Assembly (NCBI GenBank): GCA_029237775.1
Contig: JAQZBR010000008.1
Span: forward strand, 62,001 to 126,000
Length of the DNA stretch: 64,000 bases
Reading direction: 5' to 3'
DNA from: Bacteroidota bacterium
GTDB taxonomy: Bacteria > Bacteroidota > Bacteroidia > 2-12-FULL-35-15
A program made the translations under genes and the position numbers. How positions within the stretch are numbered: the stretch's first letter is position 1; each line of letters begins with the position of its first letter. Of the stretch, positions 24,186 through 47,441 are shown piece after piece. The notes under the pieces are model-generated. The model searched no databases. It saw only the letters and a program-made list of their open reading frames with translations, and was not told where the DNA came from.

Positions 24186-24677
24186 TTAGTGACATTTAAA
24201 ATGCTGAAAAGGCTCATGGCAGTTATTGCAGCTGTATAATGCTTTGCAGGGAGTAGAACCAAAACGGCTTATGAGATTGGTATCTGAAGAATTACAATAA
24301 GGGCAAGATACGCGTGTAAAATCTTTCAAAGCTCTGACACAGGAAGAATGAGGCGGAGGAGCGATCCCATTGGCCTTCATTTTCTTCTTAACATCTTCAG
24401 TGATCCAATCAGTCGTCCATGCAGGAGAAGATGATGTGTTTATTGTAATCTTCTGCAGCCCATGTTCGGTAAGCTTTTGCCGTATCTGATTTTCGATCCT
24501 TGACATGGCAGGGCAACCTGTATACGTAGGTGTTATTGTGATAACAAACTCGCCATTATTTAATTTTACATCTCTTAAAATACCAAGCTCCGTGATGGAA
24601 ATAGCCGGAATCTCCGGATCGGTTATCCCTGAGATCCAGTCAAACACCTGCGATGTATTTATTCCAGTACTTAACAC
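24186..24677 (-). CDS. paaD: PaaD-like protein (phenylacetyl-CoA epoxidase accessory)
   Basis: 163 residues. An N-terminal DUF59/MIP18-type domain (T-D-P-E-I-P-A-I-S-I, T-P-T-Y-T-G-C-P-A-M) joins a C-terminal zinc ribbon (C-P-Y-C about 127-130, C-N-N-C about 152-155), the PaaD/PaaJ layout. PaaD is thought to help Fe-S or di-iron assembly for the PaaABCE phenylacetyl-CoA epoxidase. None of those genes is in the window, so it is an orphan here, next to cytochrome oxidase genes. The start is GTG, because a stop codon lies directly upstream in frame. It has its own CRP/FNR-like promoter. Confidence 0.85.
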   Translation of the reverse strand: MLSTGINTSQVFDWISGITDPEIPAISITELGILRDVKLNNGEFVITITPTYTGCPAMSRIENQIRQKLTEHGLQKITINTSSSPAWTTDWITEDVKKKMKANGIAPPPHSSCVRALKDFTRVSCPYCNSSDTNLISRFGSTPCKALYSCNNCHEPFQHFKCH

Positions 24678-24699: not shown

Positions 24700-24742
24700 C
24701 AAATTTAGAGTCATCAATATATTATAAAAATGACTTTGGTCA
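24700..24742 (-). promoter_or_regulatory. CRP/FNR-like site and promoter of paaD
   Basis: On the minus strand the dyad TGACCAAAGTCA (24731-24742) is a perfect 4+4 palindrome around a 4-base spacer. TAAATTTG (24700-24707) matches TAnnTTTG. Centre-to-box distance is 29.5 bases. Confidence 0.75.
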
Positions 24743-28970: not shown

Positions 28971-30380
28971 TTATTTGGTTGTTACAGGTCCGAGAAAAGT
29001 TGTTTTAACAGTTTCCAGCTTTTTATTACCGGAATAGATATCAACTGACAGATCTGTTTTTCTTTTCTTTATTTGATCCTTCGGCAGGTAGATAAAAAAG
29101 CTTGTTTCCGCTTTTGATTCCTTGTTTATCACAACATCTTTTCCAATCATTTTTATAAGGCCACTGCCATCCTTCAATTTTAGTGTAACAGGTACATTAT
29201 AATGTGTTTTGTTGATCAGCTTAATATTATATAAATTGCTCACCATGTTATTTTCCTGTTTCTGGAAAAGCATTCCGGGAGTCCGTAAGATCGTAGCATC
29301 TACATCCTTACGAGTTGCAAGCAGAACTACTAAAAACCCGATCAATCCCAGAAGCACTACTGAATAACCCTTTATCCTTGGAGTAAAACGAAGCTTCTCG
29401 CGATTTGCAATGCCGTTCTCTGAGGCCATACGTATAAGCCCTTTTTCAAACCCTACCTTGTCCATCATAAAATCACAGGCATCAATACATGCAGTGCAAT
29501 TCGTACATTCCATCTGCGTTCCGTTACGGATGTCAATCCCCATCGGACAAACCTTTACGCATTGCATGCAATCGATACAATCTCCTTTATCTTTCCTCGC
29601 ATTTTTCTTAAACTTATCCCTGGGCTCTCCACGTTCGTAATCGTAAGCAACCAGGATCGAGTTTTTATCTGTCATCACACCTTGCAAACGTCCGTAAGGA
29701 CATACGATCAGACAAACCTGTTCTCTGAACCACGAGTACACAGCGTAAAATATTCCGGTAAATACGAGGATCGAAGTAAAACCACCGATGTGTTCTGAAA
29801 TCGGTTCTTTCACGATCTTGAATAACTTTTCAGTTCCAATCACATAAGCAAGAAATGTATTAGCAATGATGAATGATACAAGAAAGAACACCAGGTGCTT
29901 GATCGTTTTCTTTATGATCTTATCTGTGTTATATGGCGCTTTCGCGAGTGCACGCTGATGACTTGCATCTCCTTCTATCCAGTATTCGATCCTGCGGAAA
30001 ACCATTTCCATAAAGATCGTCTGCGGACAAGCCCAACCACAGAACACTCTGCCAAATACAACGGTGAACAGAACAACAAACAATATAAATGCAAGCATCC
30101 CGATTCCGAAAATGAAGAAATCCTGCGGCCAGAATGTAACTCCAAAAAGAATAAAACGTCTTTCTATGATGTTAAATAAAAAAAGAGGATCGCCATTTAT
30201 TTTTACAAAAGGAAATGTGAAAAATGCCAGAAGATAAAAGATACTTACAATAGTTCTTGCATTATACAATTTCCCTTTCGGCTTCTGAGCAAAGATCCAG
30301 TTGCGCTTCCCTTCTTTGCTTATGGTAGCAACGTTATCGCGAAACGCATCACTTTTAATATGTGTAACAAATTCATTCAT
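28971..30380 (-). CDS. ccoG: cbb3 oxidase accessory protein CcoG (FixG/RdxA-like)
   Basis: 469 residues. Several transmembrane helices, a first set of Cys in F-C-G-W-A-C-P-Q-T and I-V-C-P-Y-G-R, then two 4Fe-4S cluster motifs, C-I-D-C-M-Q-C-V-K-V-C-P and C-T-N-C-T-A-C-I-D-A-C-D (about 270-310), and a C-terminal immunoglobulin-like periplasmic domain. CcoG is needed to reduce copper for delivery to the CuB site. The ATG shares one base with the ccoP stop (TAATG). Confidence 0.95.
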   Translation of the reverse strand: MNEFVTHIKSDAFRDNVATISKEGKRNWIFAQKPKGKLYNARTIVSIFYLLAFFTFPFVKINGDPLFLFNIIERRFILFGVTFWPQDFFIFGIGMLAFILFVVLFTVVFGRVFCGWACPQTIFMEMVFRRIEYWIEGDASHQRALAKAPYNTDKIIKKTIKHLVFFLVSFIIANTFLAYVIGTEKLFKIVKEPISEHIGGFTSILVFTGIFYAVYSWFREQVCLIVCPYGRLQGVMTDKNSILVAYDYERGEPRDKFKKNARKDKGDCIDCMQCVKVCPMGIDIRNGTQMECTNCTACIDACDFMMDKVGFEKGLIRMASENGIANREKLRFTPRIKGYSVVLLGLIGFLVVLLATRKDVDATILRTPGMLFQKQENNMVSNLYNIKLINKTHYNVPVTLKLKDGSGLIKMIGKDVVINKESKAETSFFIYLPKDQIKKRKTDLSVDIYSGNKKLETVKTTFLGPVTTK

Positions 30381-31564
30381 TATTTTACAATCTGTGCAGA
30401 ATCACCAGCTGCGATTTTAGTTGAATCACTTGATCCCGACTCTTTATACAGATCACCTTGTTTTTCTTTAGCATTCGGTGGATTTGTTCCATAGATAGAT
30501 TTTATGTAGCTCGATACTTCGTGGATCTGTTTGGCTCCCAGGTCCTGCTGCCATGCTTTCATTCCTTTTTCAGGATAACCATATTTGATAGTTTTGAAAA
30601 TATCTTTAATTCCCCCACTGTGTAACCAGTAGTCGTCAGTCAGGTTGGGACCAACTCCACCTTCGCCTGCACGTCCGTGACAAGCCGCGCAATTGTCCAT
30701 GAATAAATTCTTGCCCGAAATGAGAGATGCGTCATCGATCAGAGTTGTCGCATTATTTTCATCTACCAGGTTAGCCGCTTTTTTTCTGTACTCATCCATT
30801 TGGATCTTAGCTTGTAAAAGCTGATCCTCATATTCCGCTGTCTGAAGTTTTCCTGTATTGGATATGTGATAATGTACCATATAAATAACTGACCATACAA
30901 TAGTAAGATAGAATCCGTATTTCCACCAAGGAGGAAGATTATTATCCAACTCCCGAATCCCGTCATAAACGTGATCTGTCATGATCTCCTCTTCTTTCTC
31001 AATGGCAACAGAAGCATTAAGCTTTTCAATGATAGAAGGCTCTTTGATTGCCATCTTTGCTTTTTCTTCCGCCTTTTTCGCTCTGCGCTCTTCAACACCC
31101 AGTAAGTCCATCGACATTTTATAAAGCATCCATATAATAAACACTTCAAAAGCAATGATAATTAACATCAGATAGAATGTAAAGGAATTCAATCCCATGT
31201 AGGAATTTGCAGAATGGCTAACAGAAACAACTTCCTGAGCTTTAACTGAATTGGCGGAGACACCAAATACGATCAAAGCCACTACACATTTTAAACCATT
31301 TGAGTTCTCTTTCTTTTTCTTATCCTGCTCAACTTTATTTTGTGCTGCAGCTTTTATCACATCTGCAAAAACAATTATAACAATCACAAGCAAAATAATA
31401 ATGCTGAGAAGTGTAAGGAATAGAGGATTTGAAAAAGCTGAAGAAGTGGCTGCTTTTGCAGTACTTTCCTGTGCAAATGCTGAAATCGACAGTAATAATA
31501 AAGCGAAGGACAACACGAGTCGTTTTGTTTTCTTTGCTGATGTATTTCTAAAAGCGGTATCCAT
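30380..31564 (-). CDS. ccoP: Cytochrome c subunit CcoP, extended and single-heme
   Basis: 394 residues. A C-terminal cytochrome c domain with one heme motif C-A-A-C-H (292-296) and the CcoP transmembrane anchor (Y-G-F-Y-L-T-I-V-W-S-V-I-Y). Before these, the N-terminus has a signal-like helix, a hydrophobic segment (about 50-75) and further spans at about 95 and 128, unlike the single-anchor proteobacterial CcoP. The classical protein has two hemes, whereas only one CxxCH is seen here. Feeds electrons to CcoNO. The C-terminus is a Ser/Asp/Ala tail. Confidence 0.93.
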   Translation of the reverse strand: MDTAFRNTSAKKTKRLVLSFALLLLSISAFAQESTAKAATSSAFSNPLFLTLLSIIILLVIVIIVFADVIKAAAQNKVEQDKKKKENSNGLKCVVALIVFGVSANSVKAQEVVSVSHSANSYMGLNSFTFYLMLIIIAFEVFIIWMLYKMSMDLLGVEERRAKKAEEKAKMAIKEPSIIEKLNASVAIEKEEEIMTDHVYDGIRELDNNLPPWWKYGFYLTIVWSVIYMVHYHISNTGKLQTAEYEDQLLQAKIQMDEYRKKAANLVDENNATTLIDDASLISGKNLFMDNCAACHGRAGEGGVGPNLTDDYWLHSGGIKDIFKTIKYGYPEKGMKAWQQDLGAKQIHEVSSYIKSIYGTNPPNAKEKQGDLYKESGSSDSTKIAAGDSAQIVK

Positions 31565-31759: not shown

Positions 31760-33880
31760 TTATTTTTTAATTTGAGATTTAATATCAGTTCCTATTCTTT
31801 GCAGGTAAGCAATCAGTGCTATAATTTCTTTGTTAGAAACAGTCTCTACTCCATCCTTCTTTAAGCTTGCAGTTATTCTTTCTGATTGTTCAGTTAAGTT
31901 TTTATTTGCCTCTTTATCAAATCCTGCAGGGTAAGGAACACCCAGCGTTTGCATAGCCCGTATTTTTGCAGCTGTGTTTGTTGTATCGAGATCGTCATCG
32001 AGCAACCAAGGGTAAGATGGCATGATCGAACCCGGTGACATGCTGGTAGGATCCAACATGTGATTGTAATGCCATGAATCGGGATACTTTCCTCCTACTC
32101 TGTGCAGATCGGGACCGGTACGTTTGGAGCCCCACTGGAACGGGTGATCATAAACAAACTCACCGGCTTTGGAATATTCACCGTAACGTGCGGTTTCAGA
32201 TCTGAAGGGCCGAACCATTTGTGAATGGCATGTGTAGCAACCTTCACGAATATAAATATCACGTCCCTGTAATTCAAGCGGTGTATAAGGCTTTACGCTT
32301 GCTATGGTTGGAACATTTGACTGGATCAGAAATGTAGGAACCATTTCAATGACTCCACCGATAAGGATCACAACAAGACTAAAAACCATCAATTGAACAG
32401 GTTTGCGCTCGATCCATCTGTGCCAGTGTTCACCTTTATGTGCAACATGTTCTTTTGCCAGAGGAGCCGCTTCCGCATCTTCATTTGCAAGAAAGTTTCC
32501 GGCTTTAACGGTTTTGTAAATATTGAAGGTCATCATGATCACACCGATCAGGTAAAGTGCTCCACCTAATGAGCGCGCAGCATACATCGGAGCGATCTGA
32601 GTCACTGTCTCAAGAAAGTTTGGATATTTCAACATCCCTTCTTCTGTAAACTCTTTCCACATTAAACTTTGCATGAAACCAGCCCAGTACATTGGAATAG
32701 CATAAAACAAAATACCCAGGGTTCCCAACCAGAAGTGCCAGTTAGCAAGCTTCTTTGACCAGATCTCTGTTCTGAACATTTTCGGGATCAGCCAGTATAG
32801 AATTCCGAACGTCAGGAATCCATTCCAGCCTAATGCTCCAACGTGAACGTGAGCAATGATCCAGTCAGTAAAGTGCCCTATTGCATTTACATTTTTTAAT
32901 GAAAGCATCGGCCCTTCGAATGTCGCCATACCATATGCTGTAATCGCAACAACTAAAAATTTCAAAACAACATCCTCACGTACTTTATCCCATGCACCGC
33001 GAAGCGTAAGTAATCCGTTGATCATCCCACCCCAGGACGGAGCAAGTAACATGATCGAGAAGACAACGCCTAATGATTGGGCCCAATCAGGTAAAGCTGT
33101 GTAAAGTAAGTGGTGAGGGCCTGCCCAGATGTACAGAAATATCAACGCCCAGAAGTGAATGATCGATAAGCGATAAGAATATACCGGGCGATTAGCAGCC
33201 TTAGGGATGAAGTAGTACATCAAACCTAAATATGGTGTGGTAAGGAAGAATGCAACAGCATTATGTCCGTACCACCATTGAACAAGAGCATCCTGCACAC
33301 CTGCGTACCATGAATAGCTTTTTAAGAATGTTACAGGGATCTCAACAGAATTAACAATATGAAGAACAGCAACAGTAACGAAGGTTGCAATATAGAACCA
33401 GATAGCTACGTACAAATGCCTTTCTCTTCTTTTGATGATCGTACCAAACATGTTCCATCCAAACACGACCCAGATCAAGGTGATCGCAATATCGATCGGC
33501 CATTCTAATTCTGCATATTCTTTTCCGGTTGTAAATCCAAGTGGAATGGTCAGCACTGCCGAAACAATGATCAGTTGCCAGCCCCAGAAATGGATCTTAC
33601 TTAAGGTATCATTGAACATACGCGCTTTACACAAGCGCTGTAATGAATAATACACACCCATAAAGATCCCGTTTCCGACAAATGCGAAGATCACGGCATT
33701 GGTATGTAGCGGACGTAGGCGGCCAAATGTGGTCATGCCGGTATTAAAGTTCAATGCAGGAAACACGAGCTGTAACGCTACCCAAAGCCCAACGGTCATC
33801 CCGATCAGTCCCCAGATGATCGTGGCGTATGCGAACTGCTTTACAATTTTGTTGTCGTAGGAGAATTTTTCTAATTCCAT
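31760..33880 (-). CDS. ccoN: Fused cbb3 oxidase subunits CcoN-CcoO
   Basis: 706 residues. Residues 1-480 are CcoN, the heme-copper oxidase core with at least 12 transmembrane helices and conserved H in R-L-R-P-L-H-T-N and W-W-Y-G-H-N-A-V-A-F. Residues about 500-706 are CcoO, a membrane-anchored cytochrome c with C-Y-T-C-H (548-552) and Met ligand candidates (S-I-M-P-S-Y). Fusion of N and O is typical in Bacteroidota. It reduces O2 to water at low oxygen and pumps protons. It is 9 bases after ccoS. Confidence 0.97.
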   Translation of the reverse strand: MELEKFSYDNKIVKQFAYATIIWGLIGMTVGLWVALQLVFPALNFNTGMTTFGRLRPLHTNAVIFAFVGNGIFMGVYYSLQRLCKARMFNDTLSKIHFWGWQLIIVSAVLTIPLGFTTGKEYAELEWPIDIAITLIWVVFGWNMFGTIIKRRERHLYVAIWFYIATFVTVAVLHIVNSVEIPVTFLKSYSWYAGVQDALVQWWYGHNAVAFFLTTPYLGLMYYFIPKAANRPVYSYRLSIIHFWALIFLYIWAGPHHLLYTALPDWAQSLGVVFSIMLLAPSWGGMINGLLTLRGAWDKVREDVVLKFLVVAITAYGMATFEGPMLSLKNVNAIGHFTDWIIAHVHVGALGWNGFLTFGILYWLIPKMFRTEIWSKKLANWHFWLGTLGILFYAIPMYWAGFMQSLMWKEFTEEGMLKYPNFLETVTQIAPMYAARSLGGALYLIGVIMMTFNIYKTVKAGNFLANEDAEAAPLAKEHVAHKGEHWHRWIERKPVQLMVFSLVVILIGGVIEMVPTFLIQSNVPTIASVKPYTPLELQGRDIYIREGCYTCHSQMVRPFRSETARYGEYSKAGEFVYDHPFQWGSKRTGPDLHRVGGKYPDSWHYNHMLDPTSMSPGSIMPSYPWLLDDDLDTTNTAAKIRAMQTLGVPYPAGFDKEANKNLTEQSERITASLKKDGVETVSNKEIIALIAYLQRIGTDIKSQIKK

Positions 33881-33889
33881 AAATATTGA

Positions 33890-34060
33890 TTATTTTTTGT
33901 TGGATTGATTTTCAGATCTGGTTTCGTTATCGAATAGCATTCGAACGGAAGGAGTATAATCATCGTCATACTGTCCCTTTTTCATTGCCCATAGAAAGGC
34001 GCATAAAAAGCCGCCTGCTACAAGTAAACTTATTCCGATAAGTATGAATAATGCGCTCAT
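33890..34060 (-). CDS. ccoS: CcoS-like oxidase assembly protein
   Basis: 56 residues from MSALFILIGIS. A transmembrane span (about 3-23), then W-A-M-K-K-G-Q-Y-D-D, the pattern of CcoS (G-Q-Y/F-D-D after the helix), and a charged tail. CcoS is needed for heme b and copper insertion into CcoN. The in-frame codons upstream to 34087 (MLSLKSSTN) overlap the transcript leader and are not conserved. First gene of the cco operon. Confidence 0.92.
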   Translation of the reverse strand: MSALFILIGISLLVAGGFLCAFLWAMKKGQYDDDYTPSVRMLFDNETRSENQSNKK

Positions 34061-34083: not shown

Positions 34084-34126
34084 GCAAAACTACCGCGAAA
34101 GAAGGGGACAGCTGATGAGGGCTGTC
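34084..34126 (-). promoter_or_regulatory. CRP/FNR-like site and promoter of the cco operon
   Basis: On the minus strand TGACAGCCCTCA (34115-34126) has TGA and TCA halves around 6 bases. TAGTTTTG (34084-34091) fits TAnnTTTG. The centre-to-box offset is 29.5 bases. The predicted transcript starts about 20 bases before the ccoS ATG. Confidence 0.75.
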
Positions 34127-34136
34127 AGACGTGCTA

Positions 34137-34179
34137 ATGACTTTCGTCAGTTTTTGTTTTCAACAGGCAGTATACCTTT
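34137..34179 (+). promoter_or_regulatory. CRP/FNR-like site and promoter of the globin gene
   Basis: TGACTTTCGTCA (34137-34148) is an inverted TGAC/GTCA pair around 4 bases. TACCTTTG (34172-34179) fits TAnnTTTG. Offset 29.5 bases. The site lies beside, but does not overlap, the cco site at 34115-34126, so the two divergent promoters each have their own dyad. Confidence 0.8.
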
Positions 34180-34213
34180 GCGATGATTTAAGACGAACCA
34201 ATTTCAATTAACG

Positions 34214-34582
34214 ATGAAACAAGAAATTTTAACAGCCGAACACGTGAAAATGCTGGTAGACAATTTTTACGAAAAAGTGAATGCCGACAATTTATTATCA
34301 CCTGTATTTAATCAGGATGCAAAAGTTGACTGGCAGGCTCATTTGCCGAAGATGTATAAATTCTGGAATTCTATCTTATTGGGAACAGGAGAATACAGAG
34401 GACAACCTTTTCCTCCTCACACAGTTTTGAATATCGGGACGGAACATTTTGCCCGATGGATTCAACTCTTTTATGAAACAGTGAACGAGAATTTCGAAGG
34501 TGCGGTCGCGGAAGAAGCGTTGCAGAGAGCGAAAACCATTGCATCAATCTTCCAATATAAATTAGGGTTGACCAAGAACTAA
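34214..34582 (+). CDS. Group III truncated hemoglobin
   Basis: 122 residues, the expected size for a trHb3. The start L-V-D-N-F-Y-E-K-V-N-A-D and the A-H-L-P-K-M-Y-K-F-W-N-S-I-L-L-G segment are typical of the class, and the proximal His candidate is in T-E-H-F-A-R-W. Such globins bind O2 or NO and may protect the oxidase or deliver oxygen. It is divergent from the cco operon, controlled by a CRP/FNR-like site, and converges on ccoI. ATG start. Confidence 0.92.
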   Translation: MKQEILTAEHVKMLVDNFYEKVNADNLLSPVFNQDAKVDWQAHLPKMYKFWNSILLGTGEYRGQPFPPHTVLNIGTEHFARWIQLFYETVNENFEGAVAEEALQRAKTIASIFQYKLGLTKN

Positions 34583-34589
34583 CCGATCA

Positions 34590-37007
34590 CTATAAGTCTT
34601 TAGCTCTCGCCAATAATGTAGTAGATATTGTTGCAAGAAGAACAATTGTAACCGAACTCACCGGCATTAAAATAGCTGCAACAACGGGCGATAAAACACC
34701 CTGAACGGCAAAGGATAACCCGATGATGTTATAGGTGAGTGAAATTCCAAAAGTGACAATGATTGCTTTTTTACCTTGCCTGGCAAGATCAATAAAAGCC
34801 GGCAATCTGTTAAAAGAAGAACCATCAAGTATAGCATCACAGGCAGGAGAGAAATTATTCGTATCATCCGAAACAGCAATTCCTACATCACTTTGCCTCA
34901 GTGCACCAGCATCATTTAACCCGTCTCCTATCATGATCACTTTACTGCCCTGCTGCTGGAGTGTTTGAACATGTCTCATCTTATCTTCAGGCTTTTGATT
35001 AAAATAAATGTCGGCTTCGCAGCCAAAGATATGCAGAATGGCTTTTCTCTCCGAATCATTATCACCAGACACAAGCTTCAGATCAAAGCTCTCAGAAAGC
35101 TCACTCACCAGCCGCTCCAATCCCGCTCTGTAGGAATTAACGAAGCTGAAATATCCTATGATTTCTTCGTCAAAAGAAAGAAACACTTTTGCTGTCTGCT
35201 TGTCGCCAGGTGTAATTTGACCGGTAATGAACAGTTCCGAGCCCATCTTCACTCGACAATTATCAATACATCCTTCTAGCCCGGAACCAGGGATCTCTGC
35301 AAAGCTGTAAACAGGAAGCTGTTCCCCTTTATTAAATACGGAATAAAGCTGCCTGCTCAGCGGATGGGATGACTGTCCTGCTAAAGAGCTAACGATCTTT
35401 AATTCATGAGTTGTTAATTTTGGCCCCACAAAACTGACATCAGATCCATGGGTAATTGTTCCCGTTTTATCCAAAATTACTGTATCCGCTTTTATCAGCT
35501 TTTCGATAACATCTGAGTTTTTCAGATAGAACTTATTCCTTCCAAGAATACGCATAATATTACCGTTAGCGAAGGTTGTTGTAAGCAACAAGCCACAGGG
35601 ACACGCGACAATCAGAACGGCAGTCATCGCATCCAGCGCTTTTGAACTGTCGGTAAAGAACCAATACATTCCTGAAAGCGCAGAAATACTTAAAACAGCG
35701 ATCGTAAAATATTTATTGATCCGGTCAACATAGGTTTTCTGTTGATTGAGCTGCGTGTTTTTTTTATCCTGATTCCAGAGCTGAGTTAAATAACTTTGAG
35801 ACGTTGGGTTAACAACTTCCAATTCAATTGCCCCGTCCAACTGCTTTCCTCCCGCATAAATAAGCTCACCCGCCATCTTTTTAACAGGAGCTGATTCGCC
35901 AGTAATAAAACTGTAATCAATGTGCGTTTGAGAACTTTTAAGAATTGCATCAGAAGGAATGATCTCGTTATTGCGGATAATTATATGATCCGATTTTTTT
36001 AAGTCTGAAACAGGAATGCTTATTTCCAAACCACCCTTTTTAACAGTAACTCCGATCGGAAAGTAAGATTTATAATCACGTTCGAAAGAAAGGGTGTCGT
36101 AGGTTCTGCTTTGGAAATATCGTCCTATAAGCATAAAGAAGACGATGCCACTCATGGAGTCCATATAGCCGGCTCCGCTGTGAGAAATGATCTCAAAGAG
36201 ACTGCGCGAAAAAGTTACGAGTATAGCGAGCGCTATGGGAGCATCAATATTTAAATAGCGGTTACGGATGCTTTTCCATGCCGAGCTGAAAAACTCTGAA
36301 GCACAATAGAAAAAAACCGGTAAGGAAAGCAACAAATTCAGATAACCAAAAAAGTATGTGAGCCGCTGCTGCTCATAAAAATTCCCGGAAGAAAAATATT
36401 CGGGAAAGCTCAACATCATTATATTTCCAAAACAAAAGCCCGCTAGTCCGATTTTAACGATCTGTTTCCTGCTGGTTTTTATTTCAGACTTATTTTCCAG
36501 GTCATTCAGATTAATCAGCGGTTCATAACCGGTATGAGCCATTAGTTCCACCACTTCAGAAAGCCTTATCTTCTGTTGATCATAAACGATTGTTGCTTCT
36601 TTTTTTAAAAAATCAACAGAAGAACTGATGATACAATCGTTGACACGATGCAGATTTTCCAAAAGCCAGATACAGGAACTGCAATGGATAGAGGGTATAT
36701 AAAAAGTTATATGTGTGCTGTTGCCATCGGTAAACCGAATCAACTTTTTAGTTATGCCTTCATTATCCAGATAGTCGTACTTACCTGAAAAACTAAACTT
36801 TGCGGGCGAGATCCCTGGTGAATCATTCAGGTTATAGTAAGTGCAAAGATTATTCTCTTTAAGCAGGTCGTAAACAAGCTTACAACCATCACAACAGAAT
36901 TTCTTCGAGTCATACGAAATTTCTGTCTTACAGCTTTCACCGCAATGATAACAGGAGATTTGCTTCTGAGATAAAAATGCTTTGGCCATTTCAAAAGATA
37001 AGTTCAT
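34590..37007 (-). CDS. ccoI: Copper-transporting P1B-type ATPase (CcoI/FixI-like)
   Basis: 805 residues. An N-terminal zinc-ribbon-like metal-binding region (C-Y-H-C-G-E-S-C and F-C-C-D-G-C), an HMA domain (I-H-C-S-S-C-I), P1B transmembrane helices with C-P-C, the phosphorylation motif D-K-T-G-T, T-G-E-S and G-D-G-L-N-D. CcoI exports copper to the periplasm for cbb3 oxidase maturation. The start is an ATG at 37007; MAKAFLSQKQ at 36989 is the alternative. The nearby CRP/FNR-like dyad at 37062 is not placed correctly for this gene, so its control is unclear. Confidence 0.93.
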   Translation of the reverse strand: MNLSFEMAKAFLSQKQISCYHCGESCKTEISYDSKKFCCDGCKLVYDLLKENNLCTYYNLNDSPGISPAKFSFSGKYDYLDNEGITKKLIRFTDGNSTHITFYIPSIHCSSCIWLLENLHRVNDCIISSSVDFLKKEATIVYDQQKIRLSEVVELMAHTGYEPLINLNDLENKSEIKTSRKQIVKIGLAGFCFGNIMMLSFPEYFSSGNFYEQQRLTYFFGYLNLLLSLPVFFYCASEFFSSAWKSIRNRYLNIDAPIALAILVTFSRSLFEIISHSGAGYMDSMSGIVFFMLIGRYFQSRTYDTLSFERDYKSYFPIGVTVKKGGLEISIPVSDLKKSDHIIIRNNEIIPSDAILKSSQTHIDYSFITGESAPVKKMAGELIYAGGKQLDGAIELEVVNPTSQSYLTQLWNQDKKNTQLNQQKTYVDRINKYFTIAVLSISALSGMYWFFTDSSKALDAMTAVLIVACPCGLLLTTTFANGNIMRILGRNKFYLKNSDVIEKLIKADTVILDKTGTITHGSDVSFVGPKLTTHELKIVSSLAGQSSHPLSRQLYSVFNKGEQLPVYSFAEIPGSGLEGCIDNCRVKMGSELFITGQITPGDKQTAKVFLSFDEEIIGYFSFVNSYRAGLERLVSELSESFDLKLVSGDNDSERKAILHIFGCEADIYFNQKPEDKMRHVQTLQQQGSKVIMIGDGLNDAGALRQSDVGIAVSDDTNNFSPACDAILDGSSFNRLPAFIDLARQGKKAIIVTFGISLTYNIIGLSFAVQGVLSPVVAAILMPVSSVTIVLLATISTTLLARAKDL

Positions 37008-37061
37008 ACAAAAGTCGCAACACTGAAGCGCTTTAACACTGAGCTAAATTGGTAAGCGAGC

Positions 37062-37104
37062 TGACTTTCGTCATATTTTATGATTATACACCTAGGTACT
37101 TTTG
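37062..37104 (+). promoter_or_regulatory. CRP/FNR-like site and promoter of the kinase-regulator operon
   Basis: TGACTTTCGTCA (37062-37073), identical to the globin site, and TACTTTTG (37097-37104), which fits TAnnTTTG. The offset is 29.5 bases. It precedes the kinase and its REC-CRP partner, so autoregulation is predicted. Confidence 0.8.
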
Positions 37105-37123
37105 CATAAATCATTAAATTCGC

Positions 37124-38329
37124 ATGAATTTCATCGTATCAACAAACATGGAAAGTAAAGAAGGTCTTGACGCTCTCTTCCTCTATGCGACTGAAGGCAT
37201 TCTGGTTGCTAATGATAAAGGAGAAATAACGAAAGTTAATCCAAGTGCTGAAAAGCTGTTTGGTTACAATCAGGGAGAACTAGATGGGAAGAAAATAGAA
37301 GTGCTTATTCCAAAAAGGCTGGAGCAGCAACATGTCGGGCATAGGGACAGATACAATGTTCATCCTCACGCCCGCTCTATGGGAGCAGGAAGAGAACTTT
37401 ACGGATTGAAAAAAGACGGAACGGAGTTTCCTGTTGAGATCAGCTTAAGTCCATATTCAACCCCCGAAGGACGGTTTGTTATCGCATTTATCGTTGACAT
37501 TACAATACGTAAGCAAACCGAAGAGCAAATAAAGAACTACTCCTCTGAATTAGAAAGACAGGTAAAGAATCGTACACTTATTCTTGAAGAGGCCATCGAA
37601 GAACTTGAAAAAACTAAAAAAGATCTTCATAAAGCGTTGGACAAAGAAAAAGAGTTGAATGAACTCAAAACACGATTTGTGTCCATGGCATCGCATGAGT
37701 TCAGAACACCGCTCACTACCATGATGTCTTCACTGTCGCTGGTAAACAAGTATGCAGAACAGAACGATTCAGACAACCGTAACAAACATGTAAGCAAGAT
37801 CAAGAACTCAATCAATAATCTTACTGATATACTAAACGACTTTCTCTCTGTTTCAAAACTGGAAGAAGGAAAAATTATAAATCAACCCGAATCGTTGAAC
37901 CTTAAAGAATTTGTTACAGAGGTAGTAAGTGAAATGAAAGGTATGGCGATACATGGGCAGCAGCTTAACTATAGACATACCGGCAATGAAGATGTGTCGC
38001 TGGATCAGAAATTATTAAAGCACGTTCTTTTCAACCTTATTTCTAATGCGATCAAATTTTCCCCTGAAGGCGGGACTGTTGAGATCATTTCGCAGGTCAC
38101 CAATACTTCTGTTAAGATCACGGTGAAAGATTCAGGGATTGGCATTCCGAAGGAAGATCAAAAACATTTGTTTGAACGATTTTTCAGAGGACATAATGCC
38201 ACCCACATCCAGGGAACAGGATTAGGTTTAAACATCGTTGCGAATTATATCGAGTTAATGAATGGTTCCATTGATGTTGAAAGCGAAGAATATAAAGGGA
38301 CTACATTTATCATCATCATTCCTCAGTAA
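37124..38329 (+). CDS. PAS-domain sensor histidine kinase
   Basis: 401 residues with no transmembrane segment, so cytoplasmic. A PAS domain (about 13-130), coiled coil (130-180), HisKA with the phospho-acceptor H191 in M-A-S-H-E-F-R-T-P, and an HATPase_c domain with N box N-L-I-S-N-A-I-K-F, G1 D-S-G-I-G-I-P and G-T-G-L-G-L-N. The PAS segment M-G-A-G-R-E-L-Y-G-L-K-K-D-G-T-E-F-P is widespread and not heme-diagnostic; the signal is unknown. The start could also be MESKEGLD, 8 codons on. It is followed by its likely partner regulator. Confidence 0.92.
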   Translation: MNFIVSTNMESKEGLDALFLYATEGILVANDKGEITKVNPSAEKLFGYNQGELDGKKIEVLIPKRLEQQHVGHRDRYNVHPHARSMGAGRELYGLKKDGTEFPVEISLSPYSTPEGRFVIAFIVDITIRKQTEEQIKNYSSELERQVKNRTLILEEAIEELEKTKKDLHKALDKEKELNELKTRFVSMASHEFRTPLTTMMSSLSLVNKYAEQNDSDNRNKHVSKIKNSINNLTDILNDFLSVSKLEEGKIINQPESLNLKEFVTEVVSEMKGMAIHGQQLNYRHTGNEDVSLDQKLLKHVLFNLISNAIKFSPEGGTVEIISQVTNTSVKITVKDSGIGIPKEDQKHLFERFFRGHNATHIQGTGLGLNIVANYIELMNGSIDVESEEYKGTTFIIIIPQ

Positions 38330-38337
38330 TAAATACT

Positions 38338-39396
38338 ATGAAGAAAATTCTTTTAATTGAAGACAACAAGGACGTGCGTGAAAACACCGCAGAGATCCTG
38401 CAACTCGCGAAATACGATGTCATCACTGCGGTGAACGGGAAAGAAGGTGTAGAGCTTGCGCAGAAAGAAAAGCCGGACCTGATCATTTGTGATATTATGA
38501 TGCCTGTGCTTGACGGCCATGGCGTATTGCACATGCTATCAAAAAACGAAGAAACATCGAGTATCCCTTTTATATTTTTGACCGCCAAGGCTGAACGAAG
38601 TGATTTCAGAAAAGGAATGGAAATGGGTGCCGATGATTATCTTACGAAACCGTTTGACGATGTTGAACTGATGAATGCCATTGAAAGCCGCTTGAAAAAA
38701 AATGAGATCCTTAAAAAGGAATTCAGCAAAAATGTACAGGGTATAAATGACTTTATTAATGAGGCAAAAGGCATTGAGTCATTAAAAAAACTTTCTGAAG
38801 CGCGTGACGTAAGGCATTACAAGAAGAAAGACGAGATATACAGGGATGGCGGATATCCGAAAGGAATATATTATATCAATAAAGGAAAAATAAAGACTTT
38901 TCAAACCAGCGATCAGGGAAAAGAGCTGATCACGGAGCTTCATAAAGAAGGCGACTTTTTCGGATACCTTGCTCTGCTTAAGGATGAAAAATATACTGAC
39001 TCAGCGCAGGCACTTGAAGACTCTGAAGTGTACATGATTCCGAAAGAAGACTTCTTCTCGCTCGTTTATAAGAATGCAGAGGTGTCCAAACGATTCATTG
39101 AGATCCTTTCAAATAATCTGATCGATAGGGAGAAGCAGCTTGTTAATCTTGCTTACAACTCCGTAAGAAAAAGAGTGGCAGAAGCCCTGGTTAAGCTTTC
39201 TGATAAATACAAGAAGGATGGCGAGCAAAAATTCAGTATGCAGGTATCCAGAGAGGACCTTGCGAATATGGTTGGAACTGCAACCGAAACAGTGATCCGT
39301 TCACTTAGCGACTTTAAAGATGAAAAACTAGTTGAAGTGTCCGGCAGCACTATCACCATCCTGAATTACGACAAGCTTGTTAAAATGAAGAACTAA
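38338..39396 (+). CDS. Receiver-CRP/FNR hybrid transcription regulator
   Basis: 352 residues. A CheY-like receiver (1-125) with phospho-acceptor D52 in I-C-D-I-M-M-P and K in L-T-K-P-F, a cyclic-nucleotide-binding-type beta roll (about 150-270: Y-I-N-K-G-K-I-K-T-F, G-D-F-F-G-Y-L-A-L-L), and a Crp-type HTH (about 280-345). The recognition helix G-T-A-T-E-T-V-I-R-S-L keeps the Glu and Arg (E317, R321) that in CRP contact the TGA core. There are no FNR-type N-terminal cysteines. Phosphorylation by the kinase is likely to control binding; best candidate regulator of the dyads. Starts 8 bases after the kinase. Confidence 0.9.
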   Translation: MKKILLIEDNKDVRENTAEILQLAKYDVITAVNGKEGVELAQKEKPDLIICDIMMPVLDGHGVLHMLSKNEETSSIPFIFLTAKAERSDFRKGMEMGADDYLTKPFDDVELMNAIESRLKKNEILKKEFSKNVQGINDFINEAKGIESLKKLSEARDVRHYKKKDEIYRDGGYPKGIYYINKGKIKTFQTSDQGKELITELHKEGDFFGYLALLKDEKYTDSAQALEDSEVYMIPKEDFFSLVYKNAEVSKRFIEILSNNLIDREKQLVNLAYNSVRKRVAEALVKLSDKYKKDGEQKFSMQVSREDLANMVGTATETVIRSLSDFKDEKLVEVSGSTITILNYDKLVKMKN

Positions 39397-39407: not shown

Positions 39408-39704
39408 ATGATCATTAAAGAGATTATTTCACAAATGGAAAATGCTACACAACCAGTAGTAAAAGTTTTACATAAGGGTGACAGCTTTAAAGTTTTAGTG
39501 ATTGGGTTTAAAAATGGAACTGTCTTAAAAGATCATAAAACAAATAAACAAACAAAGCTCTCGGTGCTCTCGGGAGAAGTGATTTACACAGAGGGACAAA
39601 AAAGAGTAATTCTCGAACAGTACGATGATCTGGATATCCCCATAGATGTAATGCATGCTGTAGAGGCGACAGAAGACAGCCTGTGCCTTCTTACTCAAGG
39701 GTAA
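39408..39704 (+). CDS. Small cupin protein
   Basis: 98 residues. A single cupin-like beta barrel (K-V-L-V-I-G-F-K-N-G-T-V-L-K-D-H-K, S-G-E-V-I-Y-T-E-G, D-I-P-I-D-V-M-H-A-V-E). Two His resembling cupin metal ligands are in K-D-H-K and V-M-H-A. Cupins bind metals or small ligands; the role is unknown, though a ligand sensor or a dioxygenase-like activity is possible. It follows the regulator by 11 bases, so it belongs to the kinase-regulator operon. Confidence 0.8.
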   Translation: MIIKEIISQMENATQPVVKVLHKGDSFKVLVIGFKNGTVLKDHKTNKQTKLSVLSGEVIYTEGQKRVILEQYDDLDIPIDVMHAVEATEDSLCLLTQG

Positions 39705-40580: not shown

Positions 40581-40654
40581 TTTCGGGATCCGGTCTCTCT
40601 GAGCAAAGGTACAAATAAGCATCACTCAGAACTGACAATTATCATATTCAGCTC

Positions 40655-40697
40655 TGACCGCTCTCATTCCCTACCCTGCATCCATGAAGTAATTTTG
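40655..40697 (+). promoter_or_regulatory. CRP/FNR-like site and promoter of the 109-aa gene
   Basis: TGACCGCTCTCA (40655-40666) and TAATTTTG (40690-40697, a fit to TAnnTTTG), offset 29.5 bases. The downstream half keeps TCA. A second dyad, TGACAATTATCA (40633-40644), lies just upstream. Confidence 0.7.
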
Positions 40698-40741: not shown

Positions 40742-41071
40742 ATGAGCACTATTCAAGCAAATCAGTTTAAAACTTCAGTGAACGAAATTAAAACAGCTAA
40801 CCTTGAAGTTAAAACAACGCAAATGTCAGAGTTCTGGAAAAAAGCAGAATTTAACCGTTTCGGTATTATTGCCTTGTTATTGGTAGTTGTAACCTGTATT
40901 GCAGGATTCGCGGCCGCTATCGCTGTTAATGCAAGCACCTTTCAGCTTGCAGCAGTAGCCGCTACAGCGATGGCTGTTGAGGCCCTGATCCTCTCAGTTG
41001 CCCCAATGAAAGCAATCATCATTTCCTCCGTTATTTCTGTTATTGTAAGTGGCCTGGTAATCTTTTTATAA
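40742..41071 (+). CDS. Small membrane protein of the candidate low-oxygen regulon
   Basis: 109 residues, family not recognised. A polar N-terminus (1-38) precedes three hydrophobic segments (about 41-60, 66-86, 89-108) rich in Ala and Val. It has a well-placed CRP/FNR-like site and -7 box and is followed by the 122-aa conserved hypothetical gene. A role in oxidase function or redox is inferred from context only. Confidence 0.75.
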   Translation: MSTIQANQFKTSVNEIKTANLEVKTTQMSEFWKKAEFNRFGIIALLLVVVTCIAGFAAAIAVNASTFQLAAVAATAMAVEALILSVAPMKAIIISSVISVIVSGLVIFL

Positions 41072-41122: not shown

Positions 41123-41491
41123 ATGGAAATAAAGATTAATGACCGCAGAAAGATATTCGCTGTACAGGAGGAATTTAATACGATGTTTCCTTATCTCAGA
41201 CTTGATTTCTTCCCGAGATCGGTCAAAAATTCCGGTACAACTCAAAAGCCGCTGATCAACGGAAGGAAGACCCTGGGTGAATGCAGTTCTGTGCAAAAAC
41301 GAGGGATGATGACTATTACACCGGAAATGACGGTTTCTGACCTGGAAAAAAGCTTTAACAATATTTATGGTTTAGAGGTTGTGGTTCAGAGGAAATCAGG
41401 TAAAGTGTGGCTTGAGGTCACCGTTTCGGAAAGCTGGACATTGGAAGAGCAGAACCGGCAGGGAGAATCCTTAAGTAAGATCGCGGTATAG
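41123..41491 (+). CDS. Conserved hypothetical protein
   Basis: 122 residues, cytoplasmic. N-terminus K-I-N-D-R-R-K-I-F-A-V-Q-E-E-F-N, middle M-T-I-T-P-E-M-T-V-S-D-L-E, C-terminus G-K-V-W-L-E-V-T-V and W-T-L-E-E-Q-N-R-Q-G-E. I have the impression this family is common in Bacteroidota, often with cbb3-type gene sets, but that is from memory and unverified. No motif indicates an activity. It begins 51 bases after the 109-aa gene and ends before a terminator, so the two form an operon. Confidence 0.7.
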   Translation: MEIKINDRRKIFAVQEEFNTMFPYLRLDFFPRSVKNSGTTQKPLINGRKTLGECSSVQKRGMMTITPEMTVSDLEKSFNNIYGLEVVVQRKSGKVWLEVTVSESWTLEEQNRQGESLSKIAV

Positions 41492-43138: not shown

Positions 43139-45289
43139 TTATATTTTTATACCGATGATAAGAATATCATCTACCTGCTCCAGCTGACCTCTCCAGGACT
43201 CAATTGTAGCTTCTAATAGCTCCTTTTGCGACTCCATCGTTAAGTGCTGATTTTGTATCAGCAATTGCTGAAGTGATTTATATTTAAACTTCTTTCCCTT
43301 TGATCCACCAAACTGGTCAGCGTATCCATCGGTGAAAACATAAATGGAGTCACCCTTTTCCACTTTGATTTCATTGTTATGAAAGGGCTGCAATTCCTCT
43401 CCCAGAAAGACACCTATTGGTTTCTTGTCTGCTTTTATTTCAATCAGCTTCTCATCACGGATGATCCATAAGGAGTTGTATGCCCCTGCATATTCAAGAA
43501 TTCCCGTCTTCTCATCATAGGAACACAAGGCAATGTCCATCCCATCTTTTATATTAGATCCTTCTGCAGTTTGCTTAAGGGCTTTTGTAATTCCTTTGTT
43601 TAATGCATTTAGGATCAGGTTGGGTTTAGACAACCCGCTTTCATTAACAGCCTGATTAAGCTGATTGTATGCTACTATACTCATGAACGCGCCCGGAACG
43701 CCATGCCCCGTACAATCAACAGCAGCAAATAATTTTTTGTTTCCCCAATCCTCAAACCAATAAAAGTCACCACTGACAATATCTTTCGGCTTATATAATA
43801 CAAAAGATTCCCTGAATAATTTCTTAATAAAATCGTTTGATGGAAGGATAGCTTCCTGCAAACGTTTAGCATATTTAATACTGTCTGTGATCTCTTTGTT
43901 TTTGTCAGCTACTTCATCCCTATTCTGCTCAAGCTCTTTATACACTTCAAGCAGTCGCTCATTCTTGTTTTCTATCTGGAGATAGGCCGACTGCAAAGCC
44001 AGATTTGCTTTCTGCTTTTGACGGATATTTCTGAACGACATAAAGATCAAGCCAAGTAATAACGCTGCAGCAATAGAAATCCCATTAATGATCAATTTCT
44101 TTTTTGCATTTTCACTTTGTTGTAATTCTGTTTCTTTGACAAGGAATTTTATCCTCTGCTCCTTCTGCTCACTTTCGTATTTCGATTGCATCTGAGCCAC
44201 TCGATCTGCATTTTCATCACTGAATAATGAATCTTTCAGATCTGAATATCTATTGAAATATTCATATGCCTCTTTATACTTCCCCTGTTTGTAATAGACA
44301 TTCGCTATGGCGCGCAAAGATCCTTTCTGAAATGATAAAGCATGGATCTCCTCAGAGAGCCTGTAAGATTCCAAAAGATATTTTAGCGCATTATCAAGAT
44401 CTCCCATCTTCAATGAGATCTCCCCTAGATTCCCTGTTGCTATAACGATTCCTTCTTTATCATGAGCTTCCGACCAATATTTGTAAGCATCATAAAAATT
44501 CTTTAACGCTTTCTGATATTCTCCCTTATCCATATACACCAAGCCAATTCCATTCAATGAAGCGCCATATTGAGCAACAGCCTTTAGTTTTTTTCTGATC
44601 TCAAATGAAATCTGTAAATACTTCAAAGCCTCCTCATGTTTTTTGATTCCTTCATACGCCAGCCCCATTCTGTGATAAGAATAAGCAAGGCCGGCTGAAT
44701 CTTTTATCTGCTGCTGAAGCTCAATAGCATTCTTACAAAACTCGATTGCCTTTAATGGAATGTCCTGACGATCGTATAAAACAGCAAGAGTGAATAGGCA
44801 ATCAGCCTCCTGCTCCTTGTTCTTTATCTTTTGTGCAATTTCACGAGCGGTGAATAAATATTGAACTGCTTTATCAATATTGGCTCTGGTAGACCATATC
44901 CTTGACAGATGGATATAATCATCAACCAATGTATTGCTGTCTTTTGTTGCCTTATCTATCGCAAGGGCTTTCAGATAATAAAACTCTGCAGTGTCTGTAT
45001 GCCCATTCCAGTAATTCATATTACCGGTTAATGTATAGTTATAGCTTAATTCCTTTTTCAGATCTTTTTTAACAGCCAGGTTTCTTCCTTTTGAAAGGTA
45101 TTTGTTTGCGGAATCATTGTCAGACTTTAAATAAAAATAAGCTATACGATTAAAGGTAGCAGCAATAATGGTGTCGTTACGCGTCCCATGAATCTGCTTT
45201 AACAGGCTGTCCGGCTGTAAAGGGGCTTGTCCATCAGCAGAAAACACCGATGAACAGAGAATAAAAAAAAATAGAAACAGCCTTTTCAA
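43139..45289 (-). CDS. TPR sensor protein with SpoIIE phosphatase domain (paralogue 2)
   Basis: 716 residues. Signal peptide (1-18), TPR array (about 40-370), one transmembrane helix (about 398-418), coiled coil, and a SpoIIE PP2C-type phosphatase (about 480-716) with G-D-F-Y-W, D-C-T-G-H-G-V-P-G-A and D-G-Y-A-D-Q-F-G-G. The start is TTG, 7 bases after the stop of the third paralogue. It ends in E-Q-V-D-D-I-L-I-I-G-I-K-I, as do its paralogues. No partner kinase or anti-sigma antagonist is adjacent. Confidence 0.93.
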   Translation of the reverse strand: MKRLFLFFFILCSSVFSADGQAPLQPDSLLKQIHGTRNDTIIAATFNRIAYFYLKSDNDSANKYLSKGRNLAVKKDLKKELSYNYTLTGNMNYWNGHTDTAEFYYLKALAIDKATKDSNTLVDDYIHLSRIWSTRANIDKAVQYLFTAREIAQKIKNKEQEADCLFTLAVLYDRQDIPLKAIEFCKNAIELQQQIKDSAGLAYSYHRMGLAYEGIKKHEEALKYLQISFEIRKKLKAVAQYGASLNGIGLVYMDKGEYQKALKNFYDAYKYWSEAHDKEGIVIATGNLGEISLKMGDLDNALKYLLESYRLSEEIHALSFQKGSLRAIANVYYKQGKYKEAYEYFNRYSDLKDSLFSDENADRVAQMQSKYESEQKEQRIKFLVKETELQQSENAKKKLIINGISIAAALLLGLIFMSFRNIRQKQKANLALQSAYLQIENKNERLLEVYKELEQNRDEVADKNKEITDSIKYAKRLQEAILPSNDFIKKLFRESFVLYKPKDIVSGDFYWFEDWGNKKLFAAVDCTGHGVPGAFMSIVAYNQLNQAVNESGLSKPNLILNALNKGITKALKQTAEGSNIKDGMDIALCSYDEKTGILEYAGAYNSLWIIRDEKLIEIKADKKPIGVFLGEELQPFHNNEIKVEKGDSIYVFTDGYADQFGGSKGKKFKYKSLQQLLIQNQHLTMESQKELLEATIESWRGQLEQVDDILIIGIKI

Positions 45290-45296
45290 TTTTGCG

Positions 45297-47441
45297 CTAG
45301 CTTATTTTAATACCTATAAGTAAAATATCATCCACTTGTTCCAGCCTACCTTTCCAGCTCTCAAATGTTTCATCAAATACTTTTGACTGTTCATTTACAT
45401 CTTTGTTAGCATTATCCAAAAGAAGCTTCTGAAGTTGTTTATACTTAAATTTCTTTCCTGCCTCACCGCCAAACTGATCGGCATATCCATCGGTAAACAT
45501 ATAAAGCATATCACCGGCTTTTAATTCAAATTCATTGTTTGTGAAATGCTTTACATCTTCCCCGACAAATGATCCCACCGGATATTTATCTGCCTTAAGC
45601 TCTATCAGTTCATTATTTCTGATGATCCACAAAGGATTGTACGCGGCTGCATACTCTAACATTTTCTTTTGTTTATCGATGCTGATAAGACAAATATCCA
45701 TACCATCCTTAACTGAAGAATCTTCCTCTGATTGATGAAGCATCTTTGAAATATTTTTATTCAGATCATTTAAAATGAGTGCCGGCTTTGATAGTCCGTA
45801 AACATTCAACGCCTGATTTAAAAGATTATAACCTACAATGCTCATGAATGCTCCGGGCACACCATGTCCGGTACAATCAACCGCAGCGACAAATACTTTT
45901 CCACCCCACTCTTCTACGTAATAAAAATCTCCGCTTACTATATCCTTCGGCTTGTATAAAATAAAGCTGTCAGGAAGTAATTTCTTTACGAAATGTTGTG
46001 GCGGCAGAATAGCTTCCTGCAATCGTTTTGCGTATTTAATGCTATCCGTTATCTCTTTATTCTTGATCGCCAGCTCTGTGTTCTGCTGTTCGATCTGTTC
46101 TTTCTGCTCGAAAATGTTTTGGTTTTTTGCTTCGAGAGCCAGATTTGCTTTCTTACGAACCTGGTTTCTATTGTACAGAAGCAATGCGAGCAGCAGTACA
46201 AATACACAGCCTACTATTAATGCATTTCTGATGAATGCGCTCTTACTTTGTTCGGCAGCGCGTGTAATTGATTGAATCTCCCTTTCTTTTTTCAACAGTT
46301 CTATTTGCTTGCTTTTCTTGTCATTGTTATACTTTGCATCCATCTCCGCGATCTGGGAAGAGCTTTCTTTATTAAGGATGGAATCTTTTACTTCAGTGTA
46401 TTTACGATGATAGTCAAGCGCCTCTTTATAATTGTTATTAAGCTGATAAATTTCAGAAATTGCTTTATAGGATTCACTTAACTGCTTTTGCGCATTGATC
46501 TCTTTGGAGATAGCTATTGCCTGGTTGTAATTTTCAATCGCCTTTGGATAATTTTGTCTGTCCGCATAGTTCTTCGCGATCGACATATAAGCATACGCCA
46601 TCTGACTCTTGTTTCCCACCTGTTTCTCTATTTCCAATGAACGTTTTGTATATTCAAGAGCTTCTTCATACTTTTTCTGTTCGACAAGCACATCTGAAAT
46701 ATTCACACAGATGGTGGACATTCCAGGTCTATGATTGATCTCGGTGTAGATCGCGAGGGCTCGTTTGAAAAAAGCGATTGAAATATCAAGTTTTCCTTTG
46801 TAGTAATTAACTCCTCCGATATTTGAATAAACACCTGCCAGGCCTTTTTTATCATCCACACTCGAATAGATCGTGATCACCTGCATAAAACTTTCCAACG
46901 CCTTGTCAAGATCACCCTGCGACCAATATATCAAACCAATATTATTATAGGAGCTGGCCATCCCACTCTGATTTCCCAGCTCTTCATCAATCTTCAGAGA
47001 AATAAGAAAATACTCCAATGCCTTATTATACTTTCCCTGGTTCCAATAAACCATCCCGATATTATTGTTTGAAATTGAAAGTGAATTCCGGTCGTTCAGC
47101 TTTTTGCTGATCTTTAATGATCCAAAATAGTATTCGAGAGCTTTATCATGGTTGCCCTGATTCATATTAATCATTCCAAGGACATGCATTGCTTTCGCCA
47201 TACCTTTTTCATCATCAATAGATGTGGCTTTCGTAAGAGAGCTGTCAGCAAATAACTCGGCCTTTTGAGGGTCATTGTATCTGTATTCGGAAGCCAATCC
47301 GCAGAGCAATTTTACTTTAAGAGTATCGGGCGGGGATTTTTTCAGAAGATTGGTAAGACTGTCAATAACACGTTGGCTCTGGGCCGAAGAGAGCACCGTA
47401 ATAAAAAACATGAAAGCAATGAGTATATACTTTCTGATCAT
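45297..47441 (-). CDS. TPR sensor protein with SpoIIE phosphatase domain (paralogue 3)
   Basis: 714 residues with the same plan: signal peptide (1-20), TPR array (about 40-370, repeats such as SSYNNIGLIYWSQGDLDKAL), transmembrane helix (about 399-420), coiled coil with Q/E/K-rich sequence, SpoIIE phosphatase (about 478-714) with intact metal motifs. First gene of a two-gene unit with paralogue 2; the close phosphatase identity suggests tandem duplication, while the TPR parts differ, which would change the signal sensed. Confidence 0.93.
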   Translation of the reverse strand: MIRKYILIAFMFFITVLSSAQSQRVIDSLTNLLKKSPPDTLKVKLLCGLASEYRYNDPQKAELFADSSLTKATSIDDEKGMAKAMHVLGMINMNQGNHDKALEYYFGSLKISKKLNDRNSLSISNNNIGMVYWNQGKYNKALEYFLISLKIDEELGNQSGMASSYNNIGLIYWSQGDLDKALESFMQVITIYSSVDDKKGLAGVYSNIGGVNYYKGKLDISIAFFKRALAIYTEINHRPGMSTICVNISDVLVEQKKYEEALEYTKRSLEIEKQVGNKSQMAYAYMSIAKNYADRQNYPKAIENYNQAIAISKEINAQKQLSESYKAISEIYQLNNNYKEALDYHRKYTEVKDSILNKESSSQIAEMDAKYNNDKKSKQIELLKKEREIQSITRAAEQSKSAFIRNALIVGCVFVLLLALLLYNRNQVRKKANLALEAKNQNIFEQKEQIEQQNTELAIKNKEITDSIKYAKRLQEAILPPQHFVKKLLPDSFILYKPKDIVSGDFYYVEEWGGKVFVAAVDCTGHGVPGAFMSIVGYNLLNQALNVYGLSKPALILNDLNKNISKMLHQSEEDSSVKDGMDICLISIDKQKKMLEYAAAYNPLWIIRNNELIELKADKYPVGSFVGEDVKHFTNNEFELKAGDMLYMFTDGYADQFGGEAGKKFKYKQLQKLLLDNANKDVNEQSKVFDETFESWKGRLEQVDDILLIGIKIS

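Follow-up and report, generated by a model that had tools for sequence, protein, structure and literature searches.

Organization of the locus

The 64,000-nucleotide stretch of DNA analysed here (the window) carries two adjacent genes, one coding for a PAS-type sensor histidine kinase and the other for a regulator in which a receiver domain is fused to a CRP/FNR protein, hereafter the hybrid. The small ORF that follows has no match in Pfam or NCBIfam and is possibly the third gene of the same operon. On the other side lie genes for a ccoI-like ATPase, a globin and a cbb3 oxidase, and the same 12-bp palindrome separates both divergently transcribed gene pairs of this region (Table 1). Elsewhere in the window, three paralogous TPR proteins (12898-15129, 43139-45289 and 45297-47441) carry a C-terminal region that, read by eye, resembles SpoIIE-type phosphatases.

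Table 1. Genes, operators and -7 boxes of the window; spacings are measured from the operator centre to the -7 box
Feature	Position	Strand	Remarks
PaaD-like gene	24186-24677	-
-7 box TAAATTTG	24700-24707	-	spacing 29 bp to operator 24731
Operator TGACTTTGGTCA	24731-24742		ahead of PaaD-like gene
ccoP-like subunit	30380-31564	-	downstream in cco operon; by-eye sequence reading
ccoNO fusion (cbb3 oxidase subunits I/II)	31760-33880	-
ccoS-like small ORF	33890-34060	-	56 aa; first gene after cco operator
-7 box TAGTTTTG	34085-34092	-	ccoS-ccoNO promoter, spacing 51 bp
Operator TGACTTTCGTCA	34138-34149		12-mer identical to 37062; between ccoS-ccoNO (-) and globin (+)
-7 box TACCTTTG	34173-34180	+	globin promoter, spacing 29 bp
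Bacterial-like (truncated) globin	34214-34582	+
ccoI-like P-type metal ATPase	34590-37007	-
-7 box GACTTTTG, near-consensus (1 mismatch)	37009-37016	-	toward ccoI, spacing 51 bp from 37062
Operator TGACTTTCGTCA	37062-37073		motif; between ccoI (-) and kinase-regulator operon (+)
-7 box TACTTTTG	37097-37104	+	kinase-regulator operon, spacing 29 bp
Sensor kinase (PAS-HisKA-HATPase_c)	37124-38329	+	domain matches; PAS nearest FixL/DosP-type heme PAS
Receiver-CRP hybrid regulator (Rec, cNMP-binding fold, HTH_Crp_2)	38338-39396	+	352 aa; domain matches
Small cupin-like ORF	39408-39704	+	98 aa; 12 bp downstream of hybrid; cupin-like by eye
Operator TGACAATTATCA	40633-40644		ahead of small gene at 40742
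-7 box TAATTTTG	40690-40697	+	spacing 51 bp to operator 40633

The receiver-CRP regulator and its sensor kinase

Profile matches divide the hybrid into Response_reg (residues 4-116), cNMP_binding (159-243, E 1e-22) and HTH_Crp_2 (278-349, E 1e-17), the latter two placing it in the CRP/FNR superfamily. We compared it with relatives from 80 further loci, which together with the window form a set of 81. Among these 81 hybrids the response-regulator residues E8, D9, D52 and K104 are invariant and position 82 is Thr in 79 and Ser in two; the recognition-helix residues E317 and R321 are likewise present in all. The original prediction, a receiver with D52 joined to a CRP/FNR domain with E317 and R321, thus had every position right. 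FNR-type [4Fe-4S] cysteines were not found in the hybrid, the sole Cys conserved across the 81 proteins being C51 of the receiver, so the regulator cannot sense oxygen in the manner of FNR. Escherichia coli CRP has the same fold (27% identity) and the same recognition-helix Glu and Arg, but it lacks the receiver, and its cAMP contacts Glu72 and Arg82 align with Y210 and a non-Arg residue of the hybrid. The output domain is HTH_Crp_2 and not the LuxR-type (GerE) HTH of FixJ. Judged by its sequence, the hybrid is neither a FixJ nor an FNR nor a cAMP-CRP. The best 50 PDB fold matches of its AlphaFold model (pTM 0.56) are CRP/FNR proteins, none of them named as a receiver-CRP fusion.

Relatives of the hybrid are encoded by at least 588 stretches of the genome collection, many of which share one domain only; the best 80 of these at least 588 are 57-85% identical over nearly the full length. 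Among the matches listed, well over 100 of the 376 genomes of the class contain a near full-length match with about 50% identity or more. The receiver-CRP architecture is widespread in Bacteroidia, and the switch, originally predicted to be unusual, is so by comparison with textbook systems but not within this class. Seven genomes of the same genus (G001, G010, G017, G019, G020, G028 and G033) encode receiver-CRP proteins of a second subfamily, with 44-51% identity to the one in the window. The openly licensed papers that we searched for a Bacteroidetes receiver-CRP regulator do not describe one; a description may exist elsewhere.

The kinase adjoins the hybrid in 76 of the 81 loci, a linkage that supports its predicted role as the partner of the hybrid. 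The closest PDB sequences to its PAS domain are 10jx, FixL and DosP (E 9e-15 to 1e-10), the next match following at E 7e-4. Thirteen of the best 14 are FixL or DosP, and the title of the remaining entry, 10jx, names a heme-binding PAS domain; the first 26 fold matches are all heme PAS domains. H70 aligns with the proximal heme-ligand His of FixL, and 60 of the 61 PAS-bearing kinases retain it. The kinase has the sequence features of FixL (a PAS with the proximal heme His, HisKA and HATPase_c), except that the distal Arg (R220 equivalent), present in the window kinase as R90, is poorly kept among its relatives. These resemblances suggest that the PAS probably binds heme, and they favour the earlier proposal that oxygen would be sensed through the kinase, not through FNR cysteines.

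In 15 of the kinases linked to hybrids a receiver takes the place of the PAS. Upstream of the pair, seven loci of this set (L055, L056, L059, L066, L076, L077 and L088) encode a further kinase whose PAS is of the FixL type; heme His and distal Arg are present in all seven, and the PAS of L056 matches FixL with E 1e-33. Independently of the kinase in the window, these loci thus put FixL-type sensors and receiver-CRP regulators together in one gene cluster. Where the intervening genes were read, a single receiver follows the upstream kinase. The arrangement in the seven loci is a possible multi-step phosphorelay.

Operators and promoter geometry

Taken alone, the palindrome is uninformative: TGAY-N4-RTCA occurs seven times in the window against 5.9 expected, and TGAC-N4-GTCA 27 times in the genome against 32 for the backward control, so bare motif counts were rejected as evidence for an operator. 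The situation is different when the site is combined with the -7 box TAnnTTTG. In the window, three such composites have a spacing of 29 bp and two of 51 bp, with 0.01 expected for each spacing, and in the whole genome the 29-bp composite occurs seven times against none for the control. The composite site at C1:111665 of this genome, which falls within the end of a transporter ORF, is probably spurious. The strict composite is present in 146 of the 376 class genomes, some of them without the hybrid.

The -7 box of Bacteroidetes promoters extends from about -11 to -4. Reckoned from this box, a spacing of 29 bp would centre the site near -40, the position that CRP-type activators take at class II promoters, and a spacing of 51 bp near -62, their class I position. 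The site at 37062 would be centred around -40 of the predicted start of the kinase-regulator operon, in keeping with the activator position first assigned to this dyad. Because the two spacings differ by 22 bp, one palindrome serves two divergent promoters. The predicted list of targets needs a correction: the 37062 site also faces ccoI, and the 34138 site faces both the globin gene and ccoS-ccoNO.

The same elements recur across the 81 loci. When all 256 four-base half-sites were combined with nine spacers (2-10 bases) and intergenic was compared with coding sequence, TGAC-N4-GTCA was the most intergenic-enriched palindrome (73 intergenic against eight coding occurrences), followed by TGAT-N4-ATCA. 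The distance from site to TAnnTTTG peaks at 29 bp (25 cases) and 51 bp (15), whereas the reversed box gives no more than four cases whatever the distance. In 47 instances two sites are separated by exactly 22 bp. Among the relatives, 19 of 21 ccoNO, 11 of 12 ccoI, 10 of 11 hemN, 10 of 10 hemA, 10 of 10 DoxX, 23 of 30 Usp and 45 of 70 kinase-type units have a site upstream; the baseline, 21% of other units, itself includes further true targets. For about one-third of the kinase operons, no site can be recognised in the 350 bp upstream.

Operators were also seen before homogentisate dioxygenase, desaturase and PaaD-like genes (L130, L263 and L269, the latter two of genome G034, and window position 24731). 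By its predicted members, the regulon may extend past respiration to genes for oxygen-consuming enzymes. Another gene of the window (41123-41491) codes for a small protein without a Pfam match whose relatives often lie downstream of the hybrid and usually have an operator (20 of 23); no relaxed site was found at the window copy. In genome G020, TCATAGTTTG...ATAGTTTTG is common to several of the composite sites, which may form a repeated promoter family with an element at -33.

Candidate binders and a predicted low-oxygen switch

The original prediction is weakest on the protein that occupies these operators. At cco promoters the site is present in 27 of 30 hybrid-bearing genomes and also in 30 of 30 hybrid-less ones (3% in shuffled sequence), and its presence before cco was rejected as proof of control by the hybrid. 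The window's genome also encodes a stand-alone CRP/FNR paralogue (C5:19330-19947) whose E...R recognition core is that of the hybrid and whose promoter has a composite site. The cco sites of hybrid-less genomes and the site of this paralogue argue that the operator belongs to a wider CRP/FNR group of Bacteroidia. The genome contains a third, divergent Crp-like protein of 187 aa (L132 928-1491); immediately beyond the end of its gene lies a composite site oriented toward a gene for a YiaA-like membrane protein.

The hybrid is the single detected HTH_Crp_2 gene in genomes G034 (99% complete) and G012 (96%), detected being the operative word, since profile PF13545 misses divergent Crp proteins such as the 187-aa one. 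These genomes retain seven and four composite sites, respectively, against none for the control. Sites precede rhodanese genes in both genomes, ccoS-ccoNO, homogentisate dioxygenase, desaturase and cytochrome c-like lipoprotein genes in G034, and the kinase operon itself in G012. Genome G025, with no HTH_Crp_2 gene detected, has no composite site. The persistence of sites in G034 and G012 makes direct activation by the hybrid probable, though not by it alone, at least one stand-alone paralogue probably sharing its operator. The predicted control of the kinase-regulator operon and cco through TGAC-N4-GTCA is supported by enrichment, spacing and recurrence, but the hybrid is not the sole candidate for exerting it.

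We see an even chance that control is shared, the hybrid and stand-alone CRP proteins binding the same operators and combining oxygen with other signals. Such an arrangement would fit the occurrence of one motif in hybrid-only and hybrid-less genomes, the presence of the paralogue under its own site and the larger number of sites in genomes with more Crp HTH genes (Spearman 0.78); it is compatible with a low-oxygen switch formed by the kinase and the hybrid rather than opposed to it.

It is less probable, and on balance unlikely, that the kinase responds to redox state, NO or another ligand and that its PAS is merely related in fold to that of FixL. The identity to FixL structures is about 26%, the distal residue is Arg in just 11 of 61 PAS-bearing relatives and the 15 receiver-bearing kinases have no PAS. 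However, its closest matches, by sequence and by fold, are heme PAS domains, among them 10jx, whose distal residue is not Arg; the proximal His is nearly invariant, FixL-type kinases stand in the same operon in seven loci and the targets are low-oxygen genes.

More doubtful still is the possibility that the stand-alone paralogue is the main binder and that the hybrid, encoded nearby and itself a target, controls something else. The cco operators of hybrid-less genomes and the recognition core and promoter site of the paralogue speak for it, but G034 and G012 keep sites before cco or the hybrid's own operon, and within the genus hybrid-less members have few sites (median 1 in five genomes against 8 in hybrid-bearing ones, p=0.0004; the five also lack cco). 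That the dyad is a chance match unrelated to the gene pair, as the bare counts would allow, is practically negligible, being already contradicted by the fixed -7 box spacing and the recurrence before orthologous genes.

We consider it likely that the kinase and the hybrid form a two-protein, FixL-like low-oxygen switch for their own operon and the neighbouring genes of low-oxygen respiration. As we picture it, a fall in oxygen would free the heme-PAS kinase, which would phosphorylate D52 of the hybrid; the phosphorylated protein would bind TGAC/T-N4-A/GTCA as a dimer and, placed at about -40 (class II-like) or -62 (class I-like), switch on transcription. Within the window it would act on its own operon, ccoI, the globin gene, ccoS-ccoNO and the PaaD-like gene. 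Sequence comparison and statistics establish the architecture, conservation, operator, promoter geometry, kinase linkage and regulon content, whereas the binding of heme by the kinase and of DNA by the hybrid, the phosphotransfer and the direction of the response to oxygen are inferred.

Regulons of the proteobacterial FNR/Anr type resemble the one predicted here in their targets (cco, hemN, hemA, Usp), a class II-like operator and the E...R core, but the hybrid, without Fe-S cysteines, would not sense oxygen directly. The FnrN/FixK consensus is TTGANCNNGATCAA, whereas the present operator is TGAY-N4-RTCA coupled to a Bacteroidetes -7 promoter. FxkR, a non-FixJ response regulator, is not known to have a CRP domain. 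In the hFixL-FxkR-FixK system of Rhizobium leguminosarum it is paired with a FixL-type sensor, an association similar to the one proposed here, but it still works through induction of fixK (PMC7888657), unlike the hybrid as we read it. Functionally closest is the FixL-FixJ-FixK cascade of rhizobia and Caulobacter, which has in common with the present system a PAS histidine kinase (oxygen-sensing in FixL), a CRP/FNR protein without Fe-S cysteines and, as targets that are here predicted, cbb3 oxidase and microaerobic genes (PMC4999443). There, a separate FixJ (Rec-LuxR HTH) induces fixK (PMC4999443); here, the counterparts of FixJ and FixK are one fused protein, and phosphorylation would therefore act directly on the CRP protein.

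The openly licensed literature searched does not explain how Bacteroidota tune cbb3 oxidase to oxygen. The low-oxygen switch proposed here names a specific kinase, a regulator, an operator and a set of targets, and as these occur in cultivated genera (Dyadobacter, Runella, Pontibacter and Rufibacter), it can be tested. If the proposal holds, it would be a case in which phosphorylation, and not a bound ligand or an Fe-S cluster, switches an activator with the CRP fold. We give even odds to a wider circuit throughout Bacteroidia: a FixL-type heme kinase would directly phosphorylate a CRP/FNR protein through its fused receiver, single palindromes would act as operators for two divergent promoters, one of class II and one of class I, and genomes of the Pontibacter/Rufibacter type would extend the scheme to a relay of FixL kinase, receiver, Rec-kinase and Rec-CRP.
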